From: Halomarinibacterium sedimenti
GTDB lineage: Bacteria; Bacteroidota; Bacteroidia; Flavobacteriales; Flavobacteriaceae
Assembly (NCBI RefSeq): GCF_019312585.1
Contig: NZ_JAHWDP010000001.1
Span: forward strand, 620,001 to 684,000
Length of the DNA: 64,000 nucleotides
Direction of reading: 5' to 3'
Position 1 is the stretch's first letter. Each line of letters opens with the position of its first letter. The notes under the pieces were generated by a model, which had not been told where the DNA came from, ran no database searches, and saw nothing but the letters and a program-made list of their open reading frames with translations. The position numbers were made by a program, and so were the translations under genes. Positions 2,808-48,908 of this stretch are shown piece after piece.

Positions 2808-3761
2808 TTATATTCCCTCCAACAATTTACTTATTTCATCCAGTTTTGGTGTTAAAATCACCTCAATTCGGCGGTTTTTGGCACGACCTTCACTGGTGTC
2901 ATTAGTAGCAATGGGGGCAAATTCCCCTCGACCCGCAGCGGTTAAATTGTCTTTGGGGATGCCTTTATTTTCGGTTAAAATGTTGACAATAGCCGTAGCG
3001 CGTTTGGTCGATAAATCCCAATTGTCTTGGATGTTTCCGTTGGCAGAATAAGGGACATTATCGGTGTGTCCCTCAATTAAAACTGCTATTTCTGTGTTTT
3101 TGGCCAACACATTGCCTAAAGCATTTACCGCTTCCCTTCCACGGGTATTTACGGCCCAGCTTCCACTTTCAAAAAGGAGTTTGTTTTCCATGGAGACATA
3201 TACTTTCCCGTCGCGCTGTTCTACAGTGAGTCCGTTGCCTTCAAAATTGGTTAAAGCAGCAGAGATCGCGTCTTTCAGCTTTTTCATTTGGGCATCTTTA
3301 GCAACAATCATACTTTCTAATTCTTCCACCCGTTTGGAGCGGTCTTCCAATTTTTTCTGAAGAATATTCAATCGAGCGGCTTCTTCAGCTAAGGCTTTTT
3401 CTTTGGCTTCCAATTGCTCTAACAACTTTCGGTTGCGCTCCAAATTTTCAGTGAGTGCCGAGCTACTATTCTCCTCCAAGGCATCGTAAGAGTCTTTCAG
3501 TCGGTCATAGTTACTCTTAGTTGCTGAAAGCTCCATAGCCAAAGCCGTTTTTTCAGCATTCAGTTTTTCAATTTCCTTCCGTAGATTTGCAACGGTATAG
3601 TTGCTGCCATTGCCTTCTTTTCCGTCTAATTGAGACATCAGCAATTCGTTTTCGGCTTTTAAATCGTCGTATTTAGCTTGTAAATCGTTGTAGATTTTTG
3701 GGGAAACGCAGGAAACTAGCAACAATGTAGTTCCTATTCCGAAGAAAATTTTATTCAGCAT
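2808..3761 (-). CDS. OmpA-family peptidoglycan-binding lipoprotein
   Basis: The 317-residue protein starts with a lipoprotein signal peptide (lipobox LVSC, Cys18), so it is likely tethered to a membrane facing the periplasm. Residues about 22-165 are strongly heptad-like and rich in Glu, Lys and Leu, predicting a long coiled coil. Residues about 195-305 form an OmpA C-terminal domain (GHTDNVPY, LSTKRA, GRGEFAP, NRRIEV), which in this family binds diaminopimelate in peptidoglycan. The likely role is linking an envelope component to the cell wall; no partner is evident. The gene lies 17 bases from xth on the same strand and may be cotranscribed with it, although the functions are unrelated. Confidence 0.85.
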   Translation of the reverse strand: MLNKIFFGIGTTLLLVSCVSPKIYNDLQAKYDDLKAENELLMSQLDGKEGNGSNYTVANLRKEIEKLNAEKTALAMELSATKSNYDRLKDSYDALEENSSSALTENLERNRKLLEQLEAKEKALAEEAARLNILQKKLEDRSKRVEELESMIVAKDAQMKKLKDAISAALTNFEGNGLTVEQRDGKVYVSMENKLLFESGSWAVNTRGREAVNALGNVLAKNTEIAVLIEGHTDNVPYSANGNIQDNWDLSTKRATAIVNILTENKGIPKDNLTAAGRGEFAPIATNDTSEGRAKNRRIEVILTPKLDEISKLLEGI

Positions 3762-11001: not shown

Positions 11002-11358
11002 ATGAAGTCAACATTATTATTATTTGCAATTGTATTGTTTATGAGTTGTTCGACAACAAAAAACACTAAAGAAAGTATGGATAAAGCGCAAAACACGGCG
11101 ATGGAAACTAAAAAAATGATTGAAAACGGGTTTTTAGCAGGGACCATTTCAGTATCTACAGCAGAAGGAGATTGCCCTTTTACCATTAAAGTGAATGGCG
11201 ATGAAGGCTCCTATTTTCTAGATCCAATAAATCTGGATGAAACCTATAAAATAGATGGTGAAAAAATATGGTTTACTTATAACGGATTACGCATGATGAA
11301 TCGTTGTGATAAAGCAAGTCCAATTTCAATAAAAGAAATACAAAAAAGAGCGGAATAA
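11002..11358 (+). CDS. Small lipoprotein, hypothetical
   Basis: The 118-residue product has a lipoprotein signal peptide (lipobox FMSC, Cys16) followed by a short polar linker (STTKNTKESMDKAQ). A compact domain (about residues 45-118) contains two Cys residues (GDCPF and NRCDK) that could form a disulfide. I do not recognise the family, although small lipoproteins of this layout are frequent in Flavobacteriaceae. It lacks the acidic residues after the Cys that mark surface export, so it may face the periplasm. It stands alone, and its stop codon lies inside the loop of the terminator at 11345-11368. Confidence 0.7.
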   Translation: MKSTLLLFAIVLFMSCSTTKNTKESMDKAQNTAMETKKMIENGFLAGTISVSTAEGDCPFTIKVNGDEGSYFLDPINLDETYKIDGEKIWFTYNGLRMMNRCDKASPISIKEIQKRAE

Positions 11359-14624: not shown

Positions 14625-16238
14625 ATGAAAAGCACTTTTTGGAAATTTTTAATTGTATTTGTTTGCATTTTGTGCTTTTCACAATGTGCTAAAAAAGGAA
14701 CTCCAACTGGAGGACCAAAAGATACCATCCCACCTATTATTCTAAAAAGTAATCCTGAAAATTACAACACGCATTTTACAGGAGATGAAATACGAATTTA
14801 TTTTGATGAAAACATAAAACTGAAAGATCTTCAGCAAAACCTCATCATTTCTCCTCCTTTAAAATATCAACCTGTTATTACTCCTGCTACATCTTCCAAA
14901 GTGTTGAAAATTAAAATTTTAGACACCTTAAAGGAAAATACCACCTATGTTTTCAATTTTGGAACCAGTATCACCGATAATAACGAAGGAAACGAGTTTG
15001 AATATTATAAATATGTCCTTTCAACTGGAGATTATATCGATAGCCTCACTGTAAAAGGAATCATCCATGATGGATTATTACCTGCACCCGACAAAAAAAC
15101 AACTGTGATGCTTTATGAAGTTTCTGAAGCTTTTAAGGATTCTATTATTTTTTCAGAAAAGCCCACATACATTACCACTACTAAAGAAAAAGGATCTGAT
15201 TTTGAATTAACTAATTTAAAAGACGGCACTTATTTACTGGTTGCACTACAAGAAGAAACGAGCAATTATACCTTTCAACCTAAAAAAGATAAAATTGCAT
15301 TTCTAGAAAATTTTATTTCTGTCCCTGCCGACACGAGTTACAACCTAACCTTATTTAAAGAAGTTCCCGATTACAAAATGACACGACCCAGTCATATAAG
15401 TAAAAACAAGATAGACTTTGGTTTTGAAGGAAAAATCGATTCATTAACTATTACTCCTTTAAGTAGTTTGCCCGAAGATTTTACTTCCCAAATACTACGA
15501 GACAAACAAAAAGACACCTTGCACTATTGGTTTAAACCCGCTGTAAATATTGAAGAACAAGACACCTTAAGGTTCCTGGCTTCACGGAAGGGTCAATTGG
15601 ACACATTAGTTGTAAAAATGCGCGATTTGTTTGCAGACTCGCTTCAAATTGGAAAATTATCTGCCAATATTATTACACCAAAAGACAGTATTAAAATAGG
15701 CGCAAATACGCCTTTATTATCTGTAAATGTTGAAAAATTTGAAGTTATGGATAAGGATTCTGTGACTTATGAAGTTGCCGTCTTTTTAGACAAAATAAAA
15801 AATGAAGCTTCTTTAATTTTTCCAAAGAAAGAAGATAATTCCTACCGAATTACGGTTCTGCCTGAAGCCTTTCAAGATTTCTTTGAAAAAACCAACGATA
15901 CCTTAAAATTTGCGGTAAAAACGAATCCTCTATCGGACTATGGAACATTAAAATTCTTGCTTCAAAATATCAAGGAATTTCCAGTGCTTGTAGAATTGGT
16001 AGATGATAAGTTTAAACTTGTTGCTTCTGAATATTTAGTAGAAAATAAAGAAGTCTATTTTGATTACCTCACACCCAATAAATATTATTTAAGAATTATC
16101 TACGATTCTAATCAAAACAAGCAATGGGATACAGGTAACTTTCTCCTAAAGATACAGCCCGAAAAAATAGTGTACTATCCCAAACAAGTTGAAGTACGGA
16201 GTAATTGGGATGTTAACGAAATTTTTATTGTAGAGTAA
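14625..16238 (+). CDS. Lipoprotein with N-terminal bacterial Ig-like domain
   Basis: The 537-residue product has a lipobox (FSQC, Cys21) followed by AKKGTPTGGPKD, a start very typical of a conserved Bacteroidota lipoprotein family. Residues about 35-130 form a Big_5-type Ig-like domain (PPIILKSNPENYNT, IRIYFDENIKL, YVFNFGTSITDNNEGN). The remainder is beta-rich without a recognisable catalytic motif. It is probably an envelope structural or adhesion-related protein. It likely shares a transcript with comF. Its 3' end overlaps the end of the convergent omega-amidase gene by 14 bases. Confidence 0.8.
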   Translation: MKSTFWKFLIVFVCILCFSQCAKKGTPTGGPKDTIPPIILKSNPENYNTHFTGDEIRIYFDENIKLKDLQQNLIISPPLKYQPVITPATSSKVLKIKILDTLKENTTYVFNFGTSITDNNEGNEFEYYKYVLSTGDYIDSLTVKGIIHDGLLPAPDKKTTVMLYEVSEAFKDSIIFSEKPTYITTTKEKGSDFELTNLKDGTYLLVALQEETSNYTFQPKKDKIAFLENFISVPADTSYNLTLFKEVPDYKMTRPSHISKNKIDFGFEGKIDSLTITPLSSLPEDFTSQILRDKQKDTLHYWFKPAVNIEEQDTLRFLASRKGQLDTLVVKMRDLFADSLQIGKLSANIITPKDSIKIGANTPLLSVNVEKFEVMDKDSVTYEVAVFLDKIKNEASLIFPKKEDNSYRITVLPEAFQDFFEKTNDTLKFAVKTNPLSDYGTLKFLLQNIKEFPVLVELVDDKFKLVASEYLVENKEVYFDYLTPNKYYLRIIYDSNQNKQWDTGNFLLKIQPEKIVYYPKQVEVRSNWDVNEIFIVE

Positions 16239-33844: not shown

Positions 33845-33979
33845 CAATTTCAGAAACGAAGTATCCTTAAAAAGAAGCAAGGATTATAAATCTTTCAAAA
33901 ATGAAGGCCAAATACATTAAAAAACTATAATATTTTCAACAAAATAAGGACTTTAACAATTATATTACTATTAATTTGT

Positions 33980-33987
33980 TAGCTTTG
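33980..33987 (+). promoter_or_regulatory. -7 element of the first choice-of-anchor B gene
   Basis: TAGCTTTG matches TAnnTTTG. It lies inside an upstream extension of the reading frame (open from 33976), which argues that translation starts at 34063 and not at 33976. Confidence 0.45.
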
Positions 33988-34062
33988 AAAGCTAAAAATT
34001 TCTTGATAAAGAATTCATTACCTATTTATTATATCTTATTTACCATATTTAACCCAACTCCC

Positions 34063-35982
34063 ATGATGAAAAATTTACTATCATTATTGCTTCTTATTCC
34101 ATTTATTTCCATTTCGCAAACACCTTGTGCAGGAGGAATGGCAGGAACATATCCTTGTGATGGATATGACTTACAATCTCGTCTAAGTTTAACCGATTTA
34201 AATGCTGGTTCAGGAAATGATTCTTGGGGTTGGACAGATCCTCTTGACGGAAAAGAATATGCAATTATGGGGCTAAATAATGGCACGGCTTTTATTGATA
34301 TTTCCGATCCTGTAAATCCAATATATTTAGGAAAATTACCTACTCATAGTGGTAACAGCACTTGGAGAGATATTAAAGTTTACAATAATCACGCTTTTGT
34401 TGTAAGTGAAGCTAATAATCATGGAATGCAAGTATTTGACTTAACAAGATTAAGAAGTGTTACTAGCCCTCCTGTTACATTTACTGAAGATGCTCATTTT
34501 AATGGTTTTGGGAGTGCTCATAATATTGTTATTAATGAAGACACTGGTTATGCTTATCCCGTGGGAACAAATTCGTTTAACGGAGGACCTTGGTTTATTA
34601 ACATACAAAACCCAGTAAATCCTGTAAGTGAAGGTGGATATTCTATGGACGATTATAGTCACGATGCACAAGTTGTTACATATAATGGCCCCGATGGAGA
34701 TTACACTGGTAGAGAAATTTTAATAGGAAGTAACGAAACCGAAGTTGTAATCGTAGATGTTACTGACAAAGCAAACCCTGTAAATATTTCTAGCATAAGC
34801 TACACCAATGTAGGGTATACGCACCAAGGGTGGTTTACCGAAGATCAAAGATATTTTATTTTAGGGGATGAGGTAGATGAACTAGACTTTGGTTTTAATA
34901 CAAGAACTGTAATTTTCGATTTTGATGATTTGGACAACCCACAATTTCATTTTGAATATTACGGAGCGACTGAAGCCATTGACCATAACGGATATGTTGT
35001 TGGAGATAAGTATTTTATGGCAAATTATAGAGCTGGAATGCGCGTATTCGATATAAGCGATATTGCAAACCAAAACTTCAGTGAAATAGGATATTTTGAT
35101 TCGTACCCTAATAATAACAACGCAAATTTTGATGGTGCATGGAGTGTGTTTCCGTATTTTGGCAGTGGAAATATTGTAATTAGCGATATTAACCGTGGAT
35201 TTTTTGTTGTAAAATCGAATGAAATTGACAACACAAATCCCGTTGCTGTTTGCCAAGACTATACCGCTAAAATTGCTCAGAATGGCCAAGTTATAGTTTC
35301 TGGAAGTAATATAGATGGAGGCTCTTCAGATGATAGTGGATTTATTTCATATACGGTTACTCCAAATGTATTTGACTGTTCTGATATAGGGTCTACAATT
35401 ACAGTTACGCTTACCGTTACAGACCCTTCTGGAAATTCAGACAGTTGTACAGCAGATGTAACCATTGTGGATAACCTAGGACCTCTTTTAGAATGTCTAG
35501 ACAATCAATCTCAAGAAGTTGATGCCGGCCAAACTTTCTATACTTTACCAGATTATGTTGCCAATGGCGATATTACAGCAGTAGATAATTGTACTGCCAG
35601 TGTTACAATATCTCAAGACCCTATCCCTGGCACACAACTTACCGAAGGGCCACATACAATAACTTTTGAAACTATGGATGATGAAGGAAATATAAGTTCT
35701 TGCTCCTTTGATTTAACTGTAGTTCCAGAATTAGGGATTGAAGACTCTTTGTTTTCAAAGGGATTATCTCTTTTCCCAAATCCATCTAAGGGAGCATTAA
35801 CCATTACATCTAAAACTGAAAATATCACTTCAATTACAATAATAGATATTACAGGTAAACGATTACATGAAATAAACAATCTTGATGTAACTCAAACAAC
35901 AATTGATATCTCAGCATTTTCAAAAGGTATTTATTTTATTAATTTAAATGGAAAAGCGACAAAAAAAATAATAAAACAATAA
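34063..35982 (+). CDS. Choice-of-anchor B family secreted protein 1 (T9SS)
   Basis: ATG 34063 gives 639 residues with a signal peptide (MMKNLLSLLLLIPFISIS). Residues about 20-380 form the choice-of-anchor B region, a propeller of LVIVD-like repeats (FIDISDPVNPIYLGKLPTHS, IVDVTDKANPVNISS, VFDISDIANQ). Two HYR-like Ig modules follow (about 390-480 and 485-560; DPSGNSDSCTADVTIVDN, DDEGNISSCSFDLTVV), and then a type A T9SS sorting domain (about 565-639; LFPNPSKGAL, SKGIYFINLNG). It is the first of three tandem paralogues. No catalytic motif is evident; a binding or scaffold role at the cell surface is an inference. Confidence 0.85.
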   Translation: MMKNLLSLLLLIPFISISQTPCAGGMAGTYPCDGYDLQSRLSLTDLNAGSGNDSWGWTDPLDGKEYAIMGLNNGTAFIDISDPVNPIYLGKLPTHSGNSTWRDIKVYNNHAFVVSEANNHGMQVFDLTRLRSVTSPPVTFTEDAHFNGFGSAHNIVINEDTGYAYPVGTNSFNGGPWFINIQNPVNPVSEGGYSMDDYSHDAQVVTYNGPDGDYTGREILIGSNETEVVIVDVTDKANPVNISSISYTNVGYTHQGWFTEDQRYFILGDEVDELDFGFNTRTVIFDFDDLDNPQFHFEYYGATEAIDHNGYVVGDKYFMANYRAGMRVFDISDIANQNFSEIGYFDSYPNNNNANFDGAWSVFPYFGSGNIVISDINRGFFVVKSNEIDNTNPVAVCQDYTAKIAQNGQVIVSGSNIDGGSSDDSGFISYTVTPNVFDCSDIGSTITVTLTVTDPSGNSDSCTADVTIVDNLGPLLECLDNQSQEVDAGQTFYTLPDYVANGDITAVDNCTASVTISQDPIPGTQLTEGPHTITFETMDDEGNISSCSFDLTVVPELGIEDSLFSKGLSLFPNPSKGALTITSKTENITSITIIDITGKRLHEINNLDVTQTTIDISAFSKGIYFINLNGKATKKIIKQ

Positions 35983-36023
35983 TTCAATATGGAGCCTTTA
36001 ATGAGGCAACAAAAAAAGCATCA

Positions 36024-37940
36024 ATGAAAAATTTTATATTTCTTACAACCTTATTTATAACAAGCGGATTATTGGCACAAACTCCTTGTGTAGCCGGTAT
36101 GGCTGGAGCATATCCCTGTGATGGATACGACTTGGTCTCCCATATCCCTCTTGGAGTTTTTGCTACTTCTGGTGCTAATGATAACTGGGGGTGGACAGAT
36201 CCTTTAAATGGTGATGAGTATGTATTAATGGGACTTGAAGATGGAACTGCATTTATAGATATTTCAGACCCCATTAACCCTGTTTATTTAGGAAAACTCG
36301 CAACTCATACAACAAGTACTACTTGGAGAGACGTAAAAGTGTATAACAATTATGCTTTTATTGTTAGTGAAGCAGGTGGCCATGGAATGCAAGTCTTCGA
36401 TTTAACAAGGCTAAGAAGTGTTGTAAGTCCTCCAGTAACATTTACCGAAGACGCTCATTATGACAGTGTTGGTGCAGCTCACAACTTGGTTATGAATGAA
36501 GACACTGGCTATGCTTATATGGTGGGAGGAGATTCGTTTGGAGCTACTTTTATAGATGTATCCAACCCTCTAAGCCCACAAACAGCTGGGGCTTATACTA
36601 CAAGTTATATCCATGATGCACAAGTTGTAATTTATAATGGTCCTGACACAGATTATACTGGTCATGAAATTATGATTAGTAGTAATGGATGGGAACAAAC
36701 TGTCAAAATTATTGATGTAACGAATAAAGCTAACCCAATAGAAATTTCAACCATTTTTTACACAAATCCTTCCTACTCTCATCAAGTGTGGTTTACTGAA
36801 AATCAACAACGTATATTAATTGGAGATGAAATAGATGAACAAGATTTTGGATTTGATACCAGAACCATTGTTTACGATTTAACTGACTTAGACAACCCGG
36901 TTCACGATTTTGACTTTTTTGGTACCACCGCTGCAACAGATCACAATGGTTATGTGCTAGGAGATTCATACTATTTGGCTAATTATTCTGCAGGATTAAG
37001 AGTTCTCGATATTTCGGGAATTGCATCAAACACCATTTCAGAATCAGGCTATTTTGACACGTATCCATCTGGAAATAATTCAGGTTATGATGGAGTATGG
37101 AACGTGTATCCTTATTTTGGAAGTGGTAATATTGCAATTAATGACAGAAGTGGTGGGTTCTTCTTAGTAAAAGCTTCTGGAGTAGACACTACAGACCCAA
37201 CAGCAGTCTGCCAAGATTTTACTGCAGCACTAGATGAAAACGGAGAAGTCGTTGTTGCTGGAAGTGATGTAGACGGAGGTTCTAGTGACGATAGTGGTTT
37301 TGTATCATTTACAGTAACCCCTAATACGTTCGATTGCTCAGATATTGGAACTCCAGTAACTGTAACACTAACAGTTTCAGATCCTTCAGGAAATACAGAT
37401 ACTTGTACAGCTATTGTTACAATAGTCGACAACTTAGGTCCAGTATTTGACTGTTATAACGACGAAACAGTTCTTTTTGATGCTGGTCAAAACTTCTTTA
37501 CTTTGCCCGATTATGTGGCAAACGGAAATGTAACTACAACCGATAATTGTAGTACAGGACTCACAATATCACAGTCTCCAGCTGCTGGAATTGAACTTCC
37601 AGAGGGGACACACACCATTTCTTTTGAGTCTACAGATGATGAAGGGAATACTAGTAATTGTTCTTTTGAATTAACGGTTGTTCCAGAATTAGGCATTGAA
37701 GACACCCCGTTTTCAAAAGGAATTATTTTGTATCCAAACCCTAGTTCAGATAAAATTAATATTGTTTCAAAAAACCAAAATATTACGTCCATTTCTGTGG
37801 TAGACATAACTGGAAAAGTACTCATCAATTTGAAGAATATTGACTCATTGCAAACAACCATTGACATATCTTCCTTTTCAAAAGGAATCTATTTTATTAA
37901 TCTTAACGAAAAAGCATCAAAAAAAATAATCAAACAATAG
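36024..37940 (+). CDS. Choice-of-anchor B family secreted protein 2 (T9SS)
   Basis: The 638-residue protein is a full-length paralogue of the preceding gene with the same order: signal peptide (residues 1-19, LLAQ), choice-of-anchor B propeller (FIDISDPINPVYLGKLATH, GMQVFDLTRLRSVVSPP), two HYR-like modules (DPSGNTDTCTAIVTIVDN, DDEGNTSNCSFELTVV) and a type A sorting domain (LYPNPSSDKI, SKGIYFINLNEKASKKIIKQ). The two C-termini are nearly identical, which points to a recent duplication or gene conversion. The gap to gene 1 is 41 bases, so they are probably cotranscribed. A strong terminator follows. Confidence 0.85.
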   Translation: MKNFIFLTTLFITSGLLAQTPCVAGMAGAYPCDGYDLVSHIPLGVFATSGANDNWGWTDPLNGDEYVLMGLEDGTAFIDISDPINPVYLGKLATHTTSTTWRDVKVYNNYAFIVSEAGGHGMQVFDLTRLRSVVSPPVTFTEDAHYDSVGAAHNLVMNEDTGYAYMVGGDSFGATFIDVSNPLSPQTAGAYTTSYIHDAQVVIYNGPDTDYTGHEIMISSNGWEQTVKIIDVTNKANPIEISTIFYTNPSYSHQVWFTENQQRILIGDEIDEQDFGFDTRTIVYDLTDLDNPVHDFDFFGTTAATDHNGYVLGDSYYLANYSAGLRVLDISGIASNTISESGYFDTYPSGNNSGYDGVWNVYPYFGSGNIAINDRSGGFFLVKASGVDTTDPTAVCQDFTAALDENGEVVVAGSDVDGGSSDDSGFVSFTVTPNTFDCSDIGTPVTVTLTVSDPSGNTDTCTAIVTIVDNLGPVFDCYNDETVLFDAGQNFFTLPDYVANGNVTTTDNCSTGLTISQSPAAGIELPEGTHTISFESTDDEGNTSNCSFELTVVPELGIEDTPFSKGIILYPNPSSDKINIVSKNQNITSISVVDITGKVLINLKNIDSLQTTIDISSFSKGIYFINLNEKASKKIIKQ

Positions 37941-37947
37941 AATAATA

Positions 37948-37979
37948 TTAAAAGGGCGGTACACTAACCGCCCTTTTAA
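37948..37979 (+). terminator. Terminator after the second choice-of-anchor B gene
   Basis: A perfect 13-base stem (TTAAAAGGGCGGT / ACCGCCCTTTTAA) with the six-base loop ACACTA lies 7 bases past the stop. It separates paralogues 1-2 from paralogue 3 and its operon. Confidence 0.9.
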
Positions 37980-38006
37980 TTCGTTCTAGCTATAAATACT
38001 CGAACT

Positions 38007-39413
38007 ATGAAAAAAATTACATTTCTTTTAGGCTTATTAATTACCTCTCCATTCTTTGCTCAAACACCTTGTTCTGGTGGTACAGCAAATGGTTTTCCTT
38101 GTGAAGGATATGACCTTCAATCCAAGTTTGTTTTAGCTGAAATGGGTGCTTCAGATGGGAATGATTCTTGGGGTTGGACAGATCCAGATGACGGCACAGA
38201 ATATGCACTTGTTGGATTGGACAACGGTACCGCTTTTATAAATATCTCAGACCCAATCAACCCTATTTATTTAGGAAAGCTTCCTACACATACAAATCCT
38301 AGTATCTGGAGAGATATTAAAGTTTATAATAACCATGCCTTTATTGTAAGTGAAGCTAACGGACATGGATTACAAGTGTTCGATTTAACTCGATTAAGAA
38401 ATGTTGCTAGTCCACCAGAGACATTTACAGAAGATGCTCATTTAGGAGTTTTTGGAAGCGCACACAATATTGCTATAAACGAGGATAGTGGCTATGCTTA
38501 TGTAGTTGGAACCGATGAGGCTAATGGTGGCCCTTTATTCATTAATATTCAAAATCCTTTGTCTCCTTTTATGATAGGGGATTACGATGGAAGTGGGTAT
38601 ACTCACGACGCCCAAATAATTATATATGATGGCCCTGACAGTGATTATACAGGAAAAGAAATATTTTTTGGTAGTAATGCAAATGAAGTTGTGATTGTAG
38701 ATGTTACAGATAAATTGAATCCTCAGTTAATTTCAACCATTACCTACGGGAATACATCATATACTCACCAAGGTTGGTTAACCGAAGATCGTAATTACCT
38801 TCTTGTTGGAGACGAAATAGACGAGCAAGACTTCGGGTTTAACACCAGAACTATAGTATTTGATGTTTCGGATCTAGACAATCCATCTTTTCATTTCGAT
38901 TACTTTTCAAATATTGCTTCTACAGACCACAACGGTTATGTAGTGGGTAATACTTTTTACTTGGCAAGCTATAGTGGAGGAATGAGAGTGATTAATATTT
39001 CAGACATTGCAAATCAAAATATGAATGAAATTGGATATTTCGATACCTATCCTGCCAACAATAATGCTAATTACCGTGGTTCATGGAATGTATATCCATT
39101 TTTTGTTAGTGGAAATATTGTGATTAGTGGAGAAGGAGGATTTACTTTAGTAAAGGAATCGAACCTTGGAATTAATGATAATGAAAATTTTAATTTTTCT
39201 ATGGCCCCTAATCCTGCCACAGAGAATATCACAATTACATCAAAAGTTGCTCCTATTCAAAGTATAGAAATATATAGTGTTTTAGGGCAAAAAGTAATGG
39301 ATAAAGTTGTGCCTCAAAATGTAACCCAAACTATTAATATTTCAACGCTAAAAACAGGGATGTATTTAGTAACCATTAATAAAAATACTACCCTAAGATT
39401 AGTTGTGAACTAA
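38007..39413 (+). CDS. Choice-of-anchor B family secreted protein 3, short form (T9SS)
   Basis: The 468-residue paralogue has the signal peptide (residues 1-18, FFAQ) and choice-of-anchor B propeller (FINISDPINPIYLGKLPTH, GLQVFDLTRLRNVASPP, VIDVTDKLNPQLIST-like strands). It lacks both HYR-like modules and passes directly to a different type A sorting domain (about 395-468; MAPNPATENITI, SVLGQKVM, KTGMYLVTI). It is the first gene of a likely four-gene operon with the propeller lipoprotein (11-base gap), MbnP and MbnH genes, so this copy may be the one dedicated to that module. Confidence 0.85.
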   Translation: MKKITFLLGLLITSPFFAQTPCSGGTANGFPCEGYDLQSKFVLAEMGASDGNDSWGWTDPDDGTEYALVGLDNGTAFINISDPINPIYLGKLPTHTNPSIWRDIKVYNNHAFIVSEANGHGLQVFDLTRLRNVASPPETFTEDAHLGVFGSAHNIAINEDSGYAYVVGTDEANGGPLFINIQNPLSPFMIGDYDGSGYTHDAQIIIYDGPDSDYTGKEIFFGSNANEVVIVDVTDKLNPQLISTITYGNTSYTHQGWLTEDRNYLLVGDEIDEQDFGFNTRTIVFDVSDLDNPSFHFDYFSNIASTDHNGYVVGNTFYLASYSGGMRVINISDIANQNMNEIGYFDTYPANNNANYRGSWNVYPFFVSGNIVISGEGGFTLVKESNLGINDNENFNFSMAPNPATENITITSKVAPIQSIEIYSVLGQKVMDKVVPQNVTQTINISTLKTGMYLVTINKNTTLRLVVN

Positions 39414-39424
39414 GTCTTAAAAAA

Positions 39425-40852
39425 ATGCTATTTAAAAAGAAAAGAAGATTTATTCCCATTGTCCTATTGATATGTGGTGGGCTATTCTTTGTAAGTTGTT
39501 CCAAAAAAGATGAAAACACACCTGTAGATGATACTACCACTACAGATGACGATACCGGAACAACAGACGATAATACTCCAGGTCCATTTTTAGGAGAAAT
39601 TGATTGGATAAAAACCTACGGTGGAAGTGACATTGATCAGGCCGTTGCGATTGTGGAAGCCGATGATGGAAACTACGTTGTTGCTGGAAGTACTCGAAGT
39701 ACAGATGGTGAATTAGCATCAAAACCCACTAGTGATAGTGATTATTGGGTGTTAAAAATATCATCAGCAGATGGTTCCATTATGTGGAACAAAGTCTATG
39801 GAGGAACAGAAGACGAGGTAGCTTCAAGCATCACAAAAACAAGTGACGGAGGTTATGTTCTATCTGGGTATAGCCGAAGTCCTAACGATCAATGTGGCAC
39901 ACAACCCAATGCAGGATTTCACGATTATTGGCTGCTAAAAATTGACGGAAATGGTAATGAAATGTGGTGTCAAAATTTTGGGTATTCGGGAAGTGATCAA
40001 GCATTCGATGTGTTTGAAACCAATGAAGGTGGCTATTTTGCAACTGGATTCTTCGATGTTTCAGCAAGTGGTGGCGAAGGAAATAATGATCGTCAAGGCG
40101 CTGGAAACGCTCACGGAGTGGGTGAATTCTGGGCTATTAAAATGGATTCAGACGGAGAATTTATTTGGACTCGGTATTTTGGAGGGTACAATAATGACAG
40201 AAGTTACGACGCATTACAAACCCCAGACAATGGATTTTTATTAATTGGTTCTTCTGAAAGTATTCCAGAAGAAAACTCAGATATTGAACTGAATCACGGA
40301 AGTTATGATTTTTGGGTGGTCAAAGTGAATAGTGCTGGAACTAAAGAATGGACAAAGACTTATGGCGGAATTGAAATTGATGTGGCCTATGCAATAACCC
40401 CCACTCCAGATGGAAATTACTTTATTGTGGGAGATTCACGAAGCATAGATCAAGATGTTTCTAATAATTATGGAAATGCAGACGTTTGGCTCATAAAAAT
40501 TTCACCTACAGGTCAATTATTAATGGAGAAAAATTTTGGTGGTAGTCAATTTGATTCTGCTAAAAGTATCCTACCAATATCAGACGGAAATTATCTTATC
40601 TCAGGTGCCACCAGAAGTCAAAGTAACGATGTTTCGGCAAACAATGGGGAAAATGATGCTTGGGTATTTGTAATTGATGCATCTGGAACCCTTCTATTCG
40701 AAAAGGCTATTGGTGGTAGTGCCCTTGACTTTGCAGAGGATGCCATACAATCAAATGGAAAATTAATCGTTGTTGGAAATACCGAAAGTAATGATGGGGA
40801 TATCCCTATAAATAAAGGAATTAAAGACTTATTGATTGTAAAAATTAGATAA
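39425..40852 (+). CDS. Seven-repeat beta-propeller lipoprotein
   Basis: The 475-residue protein has a lipobox (FVSC, Cys25) followed by SKKDEN and an Asp/Thr-rich linker (about 30-52). Seven repeats of about 58-66 residues follow, each with a W-x-K-x-YGG start, a DGGYVVAG-like centre and a DYWVLKI-like end. Seven such units predict a closed seven-bladed propeller. The charged residues after the lipid Cys resemble the Bacteroidota surface lipoprotein export signal. No enzyme motif is seen. It lies 11 bases after choice-of-anchor B gene 3 and 22 bases before mbnP, so a shared function is likely. Confidence 0.8.
   Translation: MLFKKKRRFIPIVLLICGGLFFVSCSKKDENTPVDDTTTTDDDTGTTDDNTPGPFLGEIDWIKTYGGSDIDQAVAIVEADDGNYVVAGSTRSTDGELASKPTSDSDYWVLKISSADGSIMWNKVYGGTEDEVASSITKTSDGGYVLSGYSRSPNDQCGTQPNAGFHDYWLLKIDGNGNEMWCQNFGYSGSDQAFDVFETNEGGYFATGFFDVSASGGEGNNDRQGAGNAHGVGEFWAIKMDSDGEFIWTRYFGGYNNDRSYDALQTPDNGFLLIGSSESIPEENSDIELNHGSYDFWVVKVNSAGTKEWTKTYGGIEIDVAYAITPTPDGNYFIVGDSRSIDQDVSNNYGNADVWLIKISPTGQLLMEKNFGGSQFDSAKSILPISDGNYLISGATRSQSNDVSANNGENDAWVFVIDASGTLLFEKAIGGSALDFAEDAIQSNGKLIVVGNTESNDGDIPINKGIKDLLIVKIR
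39596..40849 (+). repeat. Seven protein-level tandem repeats (YGG propeller blades)
   Basis: Seven diverged repeats inside the lipoprotein gene. They start near EIDWIKTYGG, IMWNKVYGG, EMWCQNFGY, FIWTRYFGG, KEWTKTYGG, LLMEKNFGG and LLFEKAIGG. The period is 174-201 bases. They are visible only after translation. Confidence 0.75.
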
Positions 40853-40874
40853 AATATTAATTGATAAATAAACT

Positions 40875-41657
40875 ATGAAAAAAATTGCACTAATACTTAT
40901 GATGGCTGTTGCCTTTGTAAGTTGTAATGATGACGATGGAAATGCTCCTATTGAAAATGTAACAGTAGATGTTAATTTTACTCACAACTGGGATGGTGAT
41001 GCCATTGAAAATGCAGATTTTGATGTGATCCAATATACCAATGCTCATGGTGAAACCCTTAGTCTTTCAAAGTTAGTATACCTTATTTCTGATGTAACTT
41101 TTACAAATGCCAGTGGAGAGGTTTTTGATGCCGGGGACTATACCTTAGTCAATGTGAGAGAAGGAAGCAATTTAACCTTTACTCCACAAATTGAAATCCC
41201 AGAAGGAACCTATTCTGTGTCATTTACCTTTGGATTTGATGATGAAGATAATGATCAAAATTATCAAGATTTAAACTCGGCTGATGGTGGATGGAACGTG
41301 CCAGTAATCCTTGGTGGTGGATATCATTATATGAGAATGGAGGGTAAATATATAGACGCATCGAGCCCTGATGAAACCAATTATCAATATCACACCATTA
41401 GAGCTGTTGATTTAGACGATCAAGGAATCATTTCAACATTAACAGATACTTCATTTGAGGTGAATCTTGGACAAGTTACCATAGGAAACACTACCAATAT
41501 TGAAGTTAAAATGAACGTTGCAGAATGGTTCAAAAACCCAAATACTTGGGATTTAACACAATTATACACCATGTTAATGCCAAATTATAATGCCCAAATC
41601 ATGATGAGTGGTAATGGTGCAAATGGTGTATTTAGTTTAGGAAATGTAACTCAGTAA
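40875..41657 (+). CDS. MbnP-family copper-binding lipoprotein
   Basis: MbnP-type proteins bind copper through a site that includes a tryptophan oxidised to kynurenine by the partner heme enzyme MbnH. The 260-residue protein has a lipobox (FVSC, Cys17) followed by NDDDGN, the family opening VDVNFTHNWDGD, KLVYLISDV, the SFTFGFDDED segment and GGYHYMRMEG. Candidate ligand or target residues are H37, W39, H58, W140, H151 and H173; which Trp would be modified cannot be decided here. It lies 16 bases before the di-heme enzyme gene. The Asp residues after Cys17 suggest surface exposure. Confidence 0.87.
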   Translation: MKKIALILMMAVAFVSCNDDDGNAPIENVTVDVNFTHNWDGDAIENADFDVIQYTNAHGETLSLSKLVYLISDVTFTNASGEVFDAGDYTLVNVREGSNLTFTPQIEIPEGTYSVSFTFGFDDEDNDQNYQDLNSADGGWNVPVILGGGYHYMRMEGKYIDASSPDETNYQYHTIRAVDLDDQGIISTLTDTSFEVNLGQVTIGNTTNIEVKMNVAEWFKNPNTWDLTQLYTMLMPNYNAQIMMSGNGANGVFSLGNVTQ

Positions 41658-41673
41658 ATTTAAATTTATCTAA

Positions 41674-42735
41674 ATGAAATACGGGCTAGCTTTATTCCTA
41701 CTCCTTTTCACACTAATTTCTTGTAATAAAGATGATGGTGGTGGGGCGTACACAGCTACTCCTTTAAATTTGGAGATACCTTCTTTTTTTGAAGAAAATA
41801 TTCTACCCCCTATCATTCCTGAAGATAACCCTATGTCTGTAGAAGGAGTTGCATTAGGCAAGAAATTATTTTTCGACCCTATTTTATCGGCAAATAACAC
41901 CCAGTCTTGTGCAGACTGCCATAGTCCCCAAAATGGGTTTAGTGATGCCAGGCAATTTAGTATTGGAATTACGGGCGAAGCGGGAAATAGAAACTCCATG
42001 CCACTTCAAAATTTAGCATGGAATTACAACGGAAAGTTCTTTTGGGATGGTCGAGCTGGTTCCTTGGAGAATCAAATTTTTGAACCAGTCACTAATCCAA
42101 TTGAAATGGCTAATACTTGGCCCAATGCCGTTGCTTCGCTTCAAAATTCGACAGAATATCCTGTATTATTTGATGATGCCTTTGGAACAACAACCATTGA
42201 TTCTACAATGGTTTCTAAAGCCATTGCGCAATTTATGAGAACCCTTATTTCTGGAAACTCTCGATTCGATCAGTTTCAAAGAGGAGAAATAGAATTATCT
42301 CCTTCCGAAGCAAATGGACTTAATGTGTTTTTAGATGAATCAAGAGGAGATTGTTTTCACTGCCATGGAAATCCTTTAAACCCGCTCTGGACAGATAATA
42401 TATTTCATAATAATGGGCTTGACGAATTCTTTATAGACAAAGGGTTGAGTAATGTAACTGGTGACCCAAGGGATGACGGTAAGTTTAAAACCCCCTCCTT
42501 AAGAAATTTGGCCTTTACAGCACCCTATATGCACGACGGTCGCTTTGAAACACTGGATGAAGTTATTAATCATTATAGTGAAGGCCTGGTCTATTCTGAA
42601 ACAATAGACCCTCTTATGAAAGCCGTTGGCGAAGGTGGTGTACATCTCTCTGAAGAGGACAAAGCAGATCTAAAAGCCTTTCTTTTATCCCTTTCGGACC
42701 CAAGCTTTATAAACAATCCCGATTTTCAGAATTAA
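41674..42735 (+). CDS. Di-heme cytochrome c peroxidase family lipoprotein (MbnH/MauG-like)
   Basis: The 353-residue protein has a lipobox (LISC, Cys17) followed by NKDDGGG, and two heme c attachment sites, C79-C82-H83 (CADCH) and C227-C230-H231 (CFHCH). Other family segments are QNLAWNYNGKFFWDGRAGSLENQ, FKTPSLRNLAFTAPYMHDGRF and a late LSEEDKADLKAFL helix. The family includes bacterial cytochrome c peroxidase, MauG and MbnH. The MbnP gene just upstream favours an MbnH-like role, oxidising a Trp of MbnP. The C-x-K-D-D start of the mature protein matches the surface-export signal known from Capnocytophaga. It is the last gene of the operon. Confidence 0.9.
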   Translation: MKYGLALFLLLFTLISCNKDDGGGAYTATPLNLEIPSFFEENILPPIIPEDNPMSVEGVALGKKLFFDPILSANNTQSCADCHSPQNGFSDARQFSIGITGEAGNRNSMPLQNLAWNYNGKFFWDGRAGSLENQIFEPVTNPIEMANTWPNAVASLQNSTEYPVLFDDAFGTTTIDSTMVSKAIAQFMRTLISGNSRFDQFQRGEIELSPSEANGLNVFLDESRGDCFHCHGNPLNPLWTDNIFHNNGLDEFFIDKGLSNVTGDPRDDGKFKTPSLRNLAFTAPYMHDGRFETLDEVINHYSEGLVYSETIDPLMKAVGEGGVHLSEEDKADLKAFLLSLSDPSFINNPDFQN

Positions 42736-44671: not shown

Positions 44672-45100
44672 ATGAAAAAAGTACTACTTACAATGACCGT
44701 TTTGCTTTCAATAAGCATGGTTTCTTGTAAAAATTCTGAAAAAAATTCTGAAGCAATAGAAAATAATGAGAGTAATTCAACAAAACTCATGCAAAACACA
44801 CTTCCATCCTACGCCGGAGAATATTTTTATTCTAATGATGGTGCTGTTTTAAAAGGCACTCATTTTATCTACGCTGTGACCATGGATGATATGGCAAAAG
44901 AATTAGGAGATAAAATTGCCCCAATAAAGAAAGAAGAATACGACATGGTTCCTGTAGTTGTAAAAGGAGTAGTTGAAGTGAATCCTGCCTATGAAAGAGG
45001 AGAAAAGGTTTGGGAACAAATTATTACAATAAAAGAAATAGTTTCTGTAAGCGATGCGCCAGCAGAAATAGATATTAAAATTGAAGAAAAGAAAAGCTAA
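44672..45100 (+). CDS. Small lipoprotein embedded in the suf operon
   Basis: The 142-residue product has a lipobox (MVSC, Cys19) and a polar linker rich in Asn, Ser and Glu. A compact domain follows (about 45-142; YAGEYFYSNDGAVLKGTHFIYAVTMDD, VPVVVKGVVEVNP, WEQIITIKEI), recalling small beta-rich lipoproteins such as NlpE-like or copper-resistance folds. I do not recognise the family. It sits between sufB and sufC with 12 and 2 bases of spacing, so it is cotranscribed with them, yet the product should be outside the cytoplasm where SufBCD works. Confidence 0.72.
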   Translation: MKKVLLTMTVLLSISMVSCKNSEKNSEAIENNESNSTKLMQNTLPSYAGEYFYSNDGAVLKGTHFIYAVTMDDMAKELGDKIAPIKKEEYDMVPVVVKGVVEVNPAYERGEKVWEQIITIKEIVSVSDAPAEIDIKIEEKKS

Positions 45101-48476: not shown

Positions 48477-48908
48477 ATGAAAAATATACTCTTAATTTTA
48501 TTGACGACAATTTTTGTAATGAGTTGTGACGAAACTAAAAGAGTGATAGACACTGCTGGAAATGTGCAACTTTCAGGAAACTACAATGTTACCGAAATTA
48601 ACGGAAATACGATTACTGAAAAAGCTCCAAATATTCGTTTTTATGCCTTGGACAAAACCATACGAGGTAATACGGGTTGTAACTCCTTTTTTGGAAGCTA
48701 TGCTTTAGATTTATATGCTCTTTCATTTAGTGACATTGGCTCCACCGAAATGGCGTGCGATCAACCTATTATGGATGTAGAAAATGCATTTCTAAACGCT
48801 CTCAACAATACAGGGTCCTATGACATCCAAAACCGAGTGTTAACATTATACTCAAAAAACGACAGAACAGTACTGCTCAAGGCAAATAAGGAAGTAACTG
48901 AAGATTAA
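48477..48908 (+). CDS. META/HslJ-domain lipoprotein embedded in the suf operon
   Basis: The 143-residue protein has a lipobox (VMSC, Cys17) and a META domain (about 30-135; LSGNYNVTEINGN, IRGNTGCNSFFGSY, IGSTEMACDQPIMDVE, LTLYSKNDRTVLL). HslJ relatives in E. coli affect novobiocin resistance; here the function is unknown. The gene lies 64 bases after sufS and its stop directly precedes the sufE ATG with no spacer, so translation is likely linked. A weak internal promoter in the 64-base gap cannot be excluded. Confidence 0.85.
   Translation: MKNILLILLTTIFVMSCDETKRVIDTAGNVQLSGNYNVTEINGNTITEKAPNIRFYALDKTIRGNTGCNSFFGSYALDLYALSFSDIGSTEMACDQPIMDVENAFLNALNNTGSYDIQNRVLTLYSKNDRTVLLKANKEVTED

Follow-up and report, generated by a model that had tools for sequence, protein, structure and literature searches.

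The window, a stretch of 64,000 nt of the Halomarinibacterium sedimenti genome, contains a run of six co-directional genes (33976-42735): three choice-of-anchor B proteins in tandem, followed by a beta-propeller lipoprotein, an MbnP-family lipoprotein and an MbnH-family di-heme enzyme (Table 1). The three upstream proteins are members of the choice-of-anchor B family (TIGR04312), whose anchor varies by lineage, and each carries a C-terminal Por_Secre_tail of type IX secretion system (T9SS) cargo, with 52.6, 54.6 and 50.3 bits against a cut-off of 27. The gene at 38007..39413 lies directly upstream of the propeller gene. The signal peptide of the propeller, MLFKKKRRFIPIVLLICGGLFFVSC, is followed by the lipid Cys and SKKDEN; an orthologue was present at 47/77 MbnP loci. 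The same genome encodes the T9SS part GldK (604.8 bits), as well as a protein of cytochrome c assembly.

Table 1. Features of the six-gene run and other lipoproteins of the window (LES rule as defined in the text).
Feature	Position	Strand	Evidence or remark
Choice-of-anchor B (first of the three tandem proteins), C-terminal T9SS type A sorting domain	33976..35982	+	TIGR04312 578.2 bits; TIGR04183 45.4 bits (cut-off 23); PF18962 52.6 bits
Choice-of-anchor B, T9SS type A tail	36024..37940	+	TIGR04312 497.5 bits; PF18962 54.6 bits
Choice-of-anchor B, T9SS type A tail	38007..39413	+	TIGR04312 523.6 bits; PF18962 50.3 bits
SBBP/delta-60-like beta-propeller lipoprotein	39425..40852	+	NF047494 53.1 bits, under its cut-off of 400
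Propeller lipid Cys and +2..+6 (C SKKDE)	39497..39514	+	acids off-register, net charge 0, fails LES rule
MbnP-family lipoprotein, probable metal-binding substrate	40875..41657	+	PF20243 102.7 bits (cut-off 27)
MbnP lipid Cys and +2..+6 (C NDDDG), LES-like	40923..40940	+	passes LES rule
MbnP Trp140, first Trp of WxW; second is Val142	41292..41294	+	W140 in 72/77
MbnP His173, candidate metal ligand	41391..41393	+	invariant, 77/77 sequences
MbnH-family di-heme enzyme, lipoprotein	41674..42735	+	PF03150 196.9 bits
MbnH lipid Cys and +2..+6 (C NKDDG), exact C-x-K-(D/E)-(D/E)	41722..41739	+	passes LES rule
MbnH first heme c site CADCH	41908..41922	+	CxxCH kept in 76/77
MbnH second heme c site CFHCH	42352..42366	+	kept in 77/77
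VSPK lipoprotein	2808-3761	-	fails LES rule
STTK lipoprotein	11002-11358		fails LES rule
AKKG lipoprotein	14625-16238		atypical FSQC box, rejected by final caller; fails LES rule
KNSE lipoprotein	44672-45100		fails LES rule
DETK lipoprotein	48477-48908		two acids, net charge 0; fails LES rule

The sequence of the MbnP-family protein gave no significant match in the PDB (a profile gave 7L6G at E 2.9), and its identity was therefore settled by fold comparison: the model (pLDDT 93.7) best matched 7L6G, the MbnP of Methylosinus trichosporium (Z 16.1, rmsd 3.6, 214 residues), the next best match having a score of 4.8. A relation to transthyretin or fimbrial proteins was rejected as too weak (Z about 4-5). 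No NCBIfam match was found up to E 0.01, TIGR04052 included, so the protein is not placed in that equivalog, and its motif reads WNV, the second Trp of WxW being lost. Given these two observations, this MbnP may neither form kynurenine nor bind copper. Its copper function is putative; candidate Trp and His residues are present.

The MbnH-family protein has two CxxCH sites, a CCP_MauG domain and an adjacent MbnP. Its best NCBIfam model was TIGR04039, with 260.8 bits, below the cut-off of 362.85, as were three other MbnHs of the family (196.1-257.7 bits). The best PDB match was 6E1C (9e-53), listed there as 'Di-heme enzyme' only, which we take to be the MbnH partner of M. trichosporium MbnP. The window and the Methylosinus pair share gene adjacency, MbnP fold and di-heme enzyme; the window proteins differ in being lipoproteins with LES-like signals, in their propeller and T9SS-tailed neighbours, and in the MbnP features named above. 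No methanobactin genes were found among the six genes, and a copper role deduced from the neighbourhood was rejected, none of the six being transporter-like. At one locus of another clade that was scanned (L076), the pair is adjoined by a TonB-dependent receptor that weakly resembles TIGR01778 (89 bits against a cut-off of 472) and by a YtkA-like lipoprotein, below cut-off.

Lipoboxes were called with our own script, not SignalP, and a signal peptidase II box with its lipid Cys was found in the propeller, MbnP and MbnH. The mature ends are CSKKDEN, CNDDDGN and CNKDDGG, as read in the first-pass annotation, which assigned an acidic, surface-export-like signal to all three proteins. Such a signal was scored (LES rule) when at least two D/E were present at +2..+6 after the lipid Cys and this segment was net acidic. 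MbnP and MbnH pass; the propeller does not, since SKKDE has a net charge of 0, with K at +3/+4. The di-heme protein is, as had been stated, an exact match to C-x-K-(D/E)-(D/E), given as the LES optimum of Capnocytophaga (PMC5080379), where shifting KDD away from the Cys by one residue is described as lowering export. Two of three SusDs of the same genome start CEQDLEQ and CTDLAIEE, a style unlike K-D-D, which therefore may not be the LES consensus of this organism.

The five other window lipoproteins named for comparison are present, and all lack the signal under the same rule. The small lipoprotein at 44672 was considered as a further surface protein and rejected, similar lipoproteins at that distance passing the rule no more often than background (9/36). 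The contrast within the window, 2/3 against 0/5, gave a Fisher p of 0.107, or 0.018 once the propeller was counted as a pass. Across 400 kb sampled from the H. sedimenti genome the rule was passed by 8/32 lipoproteins, part of these calls being doubtful, and at this background the chance of at least 2 of 3 passing is about 0.16. The contrast, offered as a sign of surface display, thus has the expected direction and is weak on its own; it is conservation across relatives, and not this contrast, that places the signal above chance.

Conservation was scored in a family set of 77 MbnP loci, two fragmentary MbnP hits (G124) of 79 being left out, and in a named set, the best 80 of 573 confirmed relatives, which overlaps the family set (common loci e.g. 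L286/L067, L292/L072, L299/L069). Rates count only rows with a called lipobox. This dropped 6/77 MbnPs, 16/77 MbnHs, 12/47 propellers and 16/34 lipid-type choice-of-anchor B proteins, many with off-pattern boxes and a few truncated or unanchored, together with 6/32 SusD, 2/30 GldK and 4/30 BamD control loci; in the named set 70/79 MbnPs, 64/80 MbnHs and 61/79 propellers were scored. The orthologue rows are not independent, so that p-values overstate significance.

In the family loci the rule was passed by 66/71 MbnPs, 40/61 MbnHs, 21/35 propellers and 10/18 lipid-anchored choice-of-anchor B proteins. Orthologues devoid of the acidic signal, which the first-pass annotation had named as evidence against its claim, are thus mostly not what was found. 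The best 80 of 573 gave 68/70, 43/64 and 48/61 for MbnP, MbnH and propeller. The positive control SusD passed in 24/26 cases and the negative controls in none (GldK 0/28, BamD 0/26, together 0/54); other lipoproteins of the flanks passed in 16/63 and 20/82. The 21/61 MbnH failures include several with a single acid in +2..+6 (e.g. CSNESVETY), and with about a third failing the strict rule MbnH is the weaker case.

The position of the acids is also conserved. In MbnP the D/E frequency is 0.90, 0.68 and 0.73 at +4, +5 and +6, and acid is limited to +4..+7, staying near 0.1 from +8 on; this drop between +4 (0.90) and +8 (0.10) led us to reject an acidic linker. Among distinct MbnP pentamers 48/53 pass, the signal being kept through sequence turnover. 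Propellers, like Capnocytophaga, carry K/R at +3 (frequency 0.51-0.57) and D/E at +4/+5; acids recur in them, less strongly, at +10 to +14. Outside the family, where 29 phylum loci were read (two of which, L354 and L355, gave a wrong ORF), only 7/13 lipoprotein MbnPs pass, several having K-rich starts such as CKKSDD. A general habit of di-heme peroxidase lipoproteins was rejected: among proteins read from one search, 3/17 lysine-rich paralogous peroxidases passed, versus 10/16 of the MbnH type. Three distant CCP-type lipoproteins (L268-L270) do pass the rule.

Lipid anchors and T9SS tails occur as alternatives. The choice-of-anchor B protein beside the propeller is T9SS-tailed in 16/47 cases and lipid-anchored in 31/47 (lenient caller). 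For 108 choice-of-anchor B proteins of the named set (best 80 of 573), a T9SS tail only was found in 65, a lipobox only in 24, both anchors in 1 and neither in 18; on a quick tree of 59, tail presence requires 7 changes, at least 2 of them being forced by starred branches. In 58 phylum MbnP rows both MbnP and MbnH were lipoproteins in 36, neither in 13, MbnH only in 7 and MbnP only in 2. All 7 MbnPs of the 'MbnH only' rows match a T9SS tail model (over cut-off in 3 for Pfam and 4 for NCBIfam); they form a group apart from the MbnP of the window and may owe their tail to a single origin. Where MbnP has a lipobox so does MbnH, in 72/74 family and 36/38 phylum rows. The 13 phylum pairs without lipid anchors, and two in the family loci (L083, L088), imply that surface display is not universal. 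At one family locus (L059) an MbnP whose lipobox is off-pattern and which lacks a T9SS tail lies beside a lipoprotein MbnH.

Surface display, as the first-pass annotation suggested, is supported by the conserved LES register, by the T9SS tails on the neighbours and on some MbnPs, and by the matched anchoring of MbnP and MbnH; support is weaker for MbnH, and the propeller is off-register. From the sequence data, the six genes probably specify an outer-surface assembly, which may be co-transcribed, with the MbnP/MbnH pair at the surface and propeller partners that may associate with it physically. The three choice-of-anchor B LVIVD proteins would be exported by the type IX secretion system; the propeller, MbnP and MbnH would be lipidated, MbnH would acquire its two c-type hemes while in the periplasm, and the three would then be flipped to the outer leaflet via the Bacteroidota LES route. 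With H2O2, MbnH would oxidise one of the tryptophans of MbnP, either at the surface or earlier, when both are still in the periplasm, and the oxidised Trp would form part of a kynurenine-type site that binds copper, or some other metal, on the cell surface. The fullest version, in which LES-displayed MbnH uses environmental or algal H2O2 to turn surface MbnP into a kynurenine-type metal trap enclosed by a shell of propellers with T9SS or lipid anchors, is put forward tentatively.

MbnH/MauG-type enzymes use H2O2 as oxidant, take electrons from their tryptophan substrate and need no electron donor; because of this chemistry, and of a published precedent, the remark that electron supply and acceptors would be unusual for a surface heme enzyme was overstated. 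The precedent is SACCP, a di-heme peroxidase that shares its location on the surface of Methylococcus with MopE (PMC3912023). MopE/SACCP of Methylococcus capsulatus and CorA/CorB of Methylomicrobium album share the theme of a surface kynurenine-type copper protein with a gene-linked di-heme peroxidase; they belong to other bacteria, and the portion of PMC3912023 available describes no LES or T9SS. In sequence, MbnP shows no marked resemblance to MopE or CorA (PMC3621798).

A different job for MbnP in this lineage, within a real surface complex, is possible, if short of being our expectation: WxW would have been lost and HxW with extra His gained, and MbnH would catalyse another oxidation or act as a surface-protecting peroxidase. 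This would fit the 47 propeller-linked MbnPs, which have WxV in 30, WxW in 12 and FxV in 5 cases (the other 30 family MbnPs all have WxW), Trp at 39 in 41/47 and His at 37, 151 and 173 in 33/47. Against it, MbnP retains its fold, its invariant His173 and its partnership with MbnH.

We consider it unlikely that MbnP alone is on the surface and that MbnH stays on the periplasmic side, where it would modify MbnP ahead of flipping. The lower pass rates of MbnH in both sets point that way, as does Methylomicrobium, where CorA is on the surface, and CorB and MEALZv2_1030035 are described as predominantly periplasmic (PMC3912023). Against it stand the exact C-x-K-D-D of the window MbnH, the shared lipoboxes, and the few K/R of MbnH-type proteins in +2..+6 (mean 0.25 versus 1.53 in paralogous peroxidases). 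That the propeller, MbnP and MbnH are ordinary outer-membrane lipoproteins facing the periplasm, their acids being chance or a flavobacterial habit, would agree with the genome background and the non-significant window contrast and is very improbable given the GldK and BamD controls, the narrow acid register kept across pentamers, and the T9SS tails replacing lipid anchors in choice-of-anchor B proteins and some MbnPs.

The proposed surface assembly of MbnP, MbnH and propellers shares with LES surface lipoproteins of Bacteroidota (SusD, MucG, BamH-K) an acidic signal that immediately follows the lipid Cys; in Flavobacterium johnsoniae LES-SiaC is surface-exposed (PMC11885536). The presence of heme proteins at the surface is not in itself new: a paper on Methylococcus deals with extracellular electron transfer and outer-membrane cytochromes (PMC6281684). 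In a limited literature search no c-type heme enzyme was found among LES surface lipoproteins; our literature search also returned no study of MbnP/MbnH in Bacteroidota and no localisation experiments on MbnP, MbnH or the propeller in that phylum. Here the choice-of-anchor B family is tied to an MbnP/MbnH gene run.

The MbnP family is present in 71/149 sampled Flavobacteriaceae genomes and 51/198 of the phylum Bacteroidota, and the reading proposed here would give this family a location and hence a job. On this reading a heme protein would cross the outer membrane by flipping, and could serve as a test cargo for the lipoprotein flippase, whose identity PMC12578637 treats as an open question. 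The reading also suggests a surface metal-capture strategy in flavobacteria, and a lipid LES or a T9SS tail would serve as a simple sequence readout of localisation. If the surface MbnH/MbnP chemistry is true, a metalloprotein would be covalently matured on the bacterial surface, and its anchor, lipid or T9SS, would be exchanged in evolution.

The reading frames, signal peptides and residues after the lipid Cys of the propeller protein, MbnP and the di-heme protein MbnH were reproduced exactly on re-reading of the window, and the five comparison lipoproteins of the first-pass annotation were present. The annotation had described all three operon lipoproteins as acidic and the others as not. 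Under a rule of at least two D/E in +2 to +6 after the Cys, with net acidic charge there, MbnP and MbnH passed and none of the five others did; the propeller had been overstated, its K residues lying at +3/+4 and its acids at +5/+6, with a net charge of 0 over +2 to +6. The propeller is thus a near-miss to C-x-K-(D/E)-(D/E), the Capnocytophaga optimum of the lipoprotein export signal (LES), which the di-heme protein matches in sequence. In the available part of PMC5080379, SiaC showed lower export when two residues, not one, parted KDD from the Cys.

Features of the window and of relatives' loci (L-numbers)
Feature	Source	Position	Strand	Remark
Three tandem choice-of-anchor B proteins	window	33976-39413		directly upstream of propeller; T9SS type A tail over cut-off in each
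Propeller lipid Cys codon	window	39497	+	C-SKKDEN
MbnP lipid Cys codon	window	40923	+	C-NDDDGN
MbnH (di-heme) lipid Cys codon	window	41722	+	C-NKDDGG
Small lipoprotein	window	44672-45100		CKNSEKNS; no Pfam match
MbnP/MbnH pair	L083	3916-5619		no lipid anchor
MbnP/MbnH pair	L088	5006-6728		no lipid anchor
MbnH frame	L052	5871		late start, no signal peptide
MbnH frame	L100	6006		late start, no signal peptide

The contrast ran in the annotated direction (2/3 against 0/5) and was weak (p = 0.107). Sampling of the same genome in 20 pieces of 20 kb yielded 32 called lipoproteins, of which 8 passed the rule, a background that gives a probability of 0.16 for at least two of three passing. Within the window alone, the acidic-signal contrast is hardly above chance.

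Across the family Flavobacteriaceae, the rule separated SusD (24/26 passing) from GldK (0/28), which faces the periplasm, and from BamD (0/26). A periplasm-facing BamD is consistent with the accessible portion of PMC12578637. For a matched control, 41 family genomes were searched with CCP_MauG (PF03150) and 50 of the proteins found were read: 10/16 lipoprotein enzymes of the MbnH type passed (mean K/R in +2 to +6, 0.25; these overlap the 77 family loci described below), as did 3/17 lipoprotein paralogues (mean 1.53) and 3/3 distant CCP-type lipoproteins. The last, di-heme proteins of about 446 aa (L268, L269, L270; CATDDGY, CATDNDDY, CQSDNDY), are perhaps further surface heme enzymes. No lipobox was found in the di-heme paralogue of the window's own genome.

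MbnP (PF20243) was present in 71 of 149 sampled family genomes, and 77 of 79 MbnP loci were fetched and read with one lipobox caller for all proteins. MbnH adjoined MbnP in all 77, and a propeller orthologue occurred in 47. Passing rates were 66/71 for MbnP, 40/61 for MbnH, 21/35 for propellers and 10/18 for choice-of-anchor B proteins with a lipid anchor. A second set comprised the 80 best named loci recovered by searching with the window's MbnH, some of them common to both sets; here the counts were 68/70, 43/64 and 48/61 for MbnP, MbnH and propeller, and 20/82 for other flank lipoproteins. With distinct pentamers counted once, 48/53 MbnP, 40/59 MbnH and 20/33 propellers passed, and 8/32 in the own-genome sample. 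In 29 further phylum loci, 12 of 18 lipoprotein MbnPs passed (5/5 in the family, 7/13 elsewhere). The acidic signal that the annotation expected of orthologues is thus kept in the family and weaker outside it. Since orthologues are not independent, the case rests on the pattern and not on p-values.

Two short MbnH frames (L052, L100) could be due to truncation or frameshift; in that of L100 the first CxxCH is absent. Within the 77 loci, 36 small lipoproteins resembling that at 44672-45100 were chosen by size, signal and like distance, not homology; they lie beside putative Suf genes.

The acidic residues of MbnP are in register, with D/E frequencies of 0.06, 0.27, 0.90, 0.68, 0.73, 0.34 and 0.10 from +2 to +8. 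In propellers, the frequency of K/R at +3 is 0.51-0.57 and that of D/E at +4/+5 is 0.51-0.84. The pattern corresponds to the Capnocytophaga LES register and is not that of a uniformly acidic linker. The SusD acid peak falls at +2 to +4. Two SusDs of the window's genome start CEQDLEQ and CTDLAIEE, so this organism has more than one LES style.

In the choice-of-anchor B copy adjoining the propeller, the anchor (ALTERNATIVES) was a type IX secretion system (T9SS) tail in 16 of 47 loci and a lipid in 31 (lenient caller). The 108 choice-of-anchor B proteins of the named set comprised 65 with a T9SS tail only, 24 with a lipobox only, 1 with both and 18 with neither called. A quick tree built from 59 of these proteins, with tails and signal peptides removed, needed 7 changes in tail presence or absence, at least 2 of them forced by well-supported branches. 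Since T9SS cargo crosses the outer membrane, an acidic-signal lipoprotein at that position is best interpreted as surface-anchored as well.

MbnP occurred in 51 of 198 sampled phylum genomes. An MbnH partner was present at the same locus for 58 MbnP rows (L385 and L407 have two MbnPs beside one MbnH): 36 had both proteins as lipoproteins, 13 had neither, 7 had only MbnH and 2 only MbnP. The seven MbnPs whose MbnH partner alone is a lipoprotein all matched a T9SS tail model at the C-terminus (Pfam 17.9-45.4 bits), 3/7 over the PF18962 cut-off (27) and 4/7 over that of TIGR04183 (23); the L408 MbnP ("neither" class) matched too. MbnP, too, thus occurs with a lipid anchor in some loci and with a T9SS anchor in others. 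In the family loci, both were lipoproteins in 72, MbnP only in 2, neither in 2 and MbnH only in 1 (L059, its MbnP having an off-pattern lipobox and no T9SS tail). Enzyme and substrate usually have matching anchoring. On a 72-row MbnP tree, the three anchor states need 5 changes; tailed MbnPs form a group separate from the window's lineage, and their tail may have a single origin.

The window MbnP matched PF20243 with 102.7 bits, and its AlphaFold2 model (pLDDT 93.7) had Methylosinus MbnP (7L6G) as its best structural match, with a Z of 16.1 across 214 residues against 4.8 for the next best. The di-heme protein is closest in the PDB to 6E1C (9e-53), which we take to be MbnH; its nearest NCBIfam model, TIGR04039, scored below cut-off. 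Across the 77 loci, the first and second CxxCH of MbnH were kept in 76 and 77, MbnP His173 was invariant and Trp140 was found in 72. Residues 140-142 of the window MbnP read WNV where the motif that names TIGR04052 is WxW. The 47 propeller-linked MbnPs have WxV (30), WxW (12) or FxV (5), the second Trp missing in 35; those without a propeller link have WxW in 30/30. Trp at 39 occurs in 41/47 of the linked group, and His at 37, 151 and 173 jointly in 33/47. The MbnPs of the L083 and L088 pairs, an unanchored form within the same family, lack His37 and Trp39. If any Trp is modified, the candidates would include W140 and W39.

MbnH and MauG use H2O2 and draw electrons from a substrate Trp, so no outside electron donor is required, and the annotation's argument from an unusual electron supply at the surface fails on this chemistry. 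The most likely route would be Sec export, lipidation, heme attachment and LES-dependent surface delivery. A cytochrome c assembly protein is present in the genome. As far as the accessible portion of PMC12578637 goes, the flippase for this delivery is still unknown; that of PMC11885536 places LES cargo at the surface of F. johnsoniae without any LolA/LolB.

In the other flavobacterial MbnP/MbnH clade, part of the loci have an upstream TonB-dependent receptor weakly similar to a copper-receptor model (L076 scanned), which hints at a role in metal uptake. In L073, L076 and L081 of this clade the pair is preceded by a TonB-dependent receptor of 661 aa, a lipoprotein resembling YtkA and a protein of about 122 aa with an LCxNx7CNGxC pattern. 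In L077, L089, L099 and L104, a protein of about 300-330 aa with a DxCxCGS-like start lies 3' of MbnH.

Comparison with relatives gives good support, short of proof, to the annotated reading that propeller, MbnP and MbnH would be displayed on the cell surface. The proposed surface metal capture would be consistent with both published systems, MopE/SACCP and CorA/CorB, as far as the available parts of PMC3912023 and PMC3621798 describe them.
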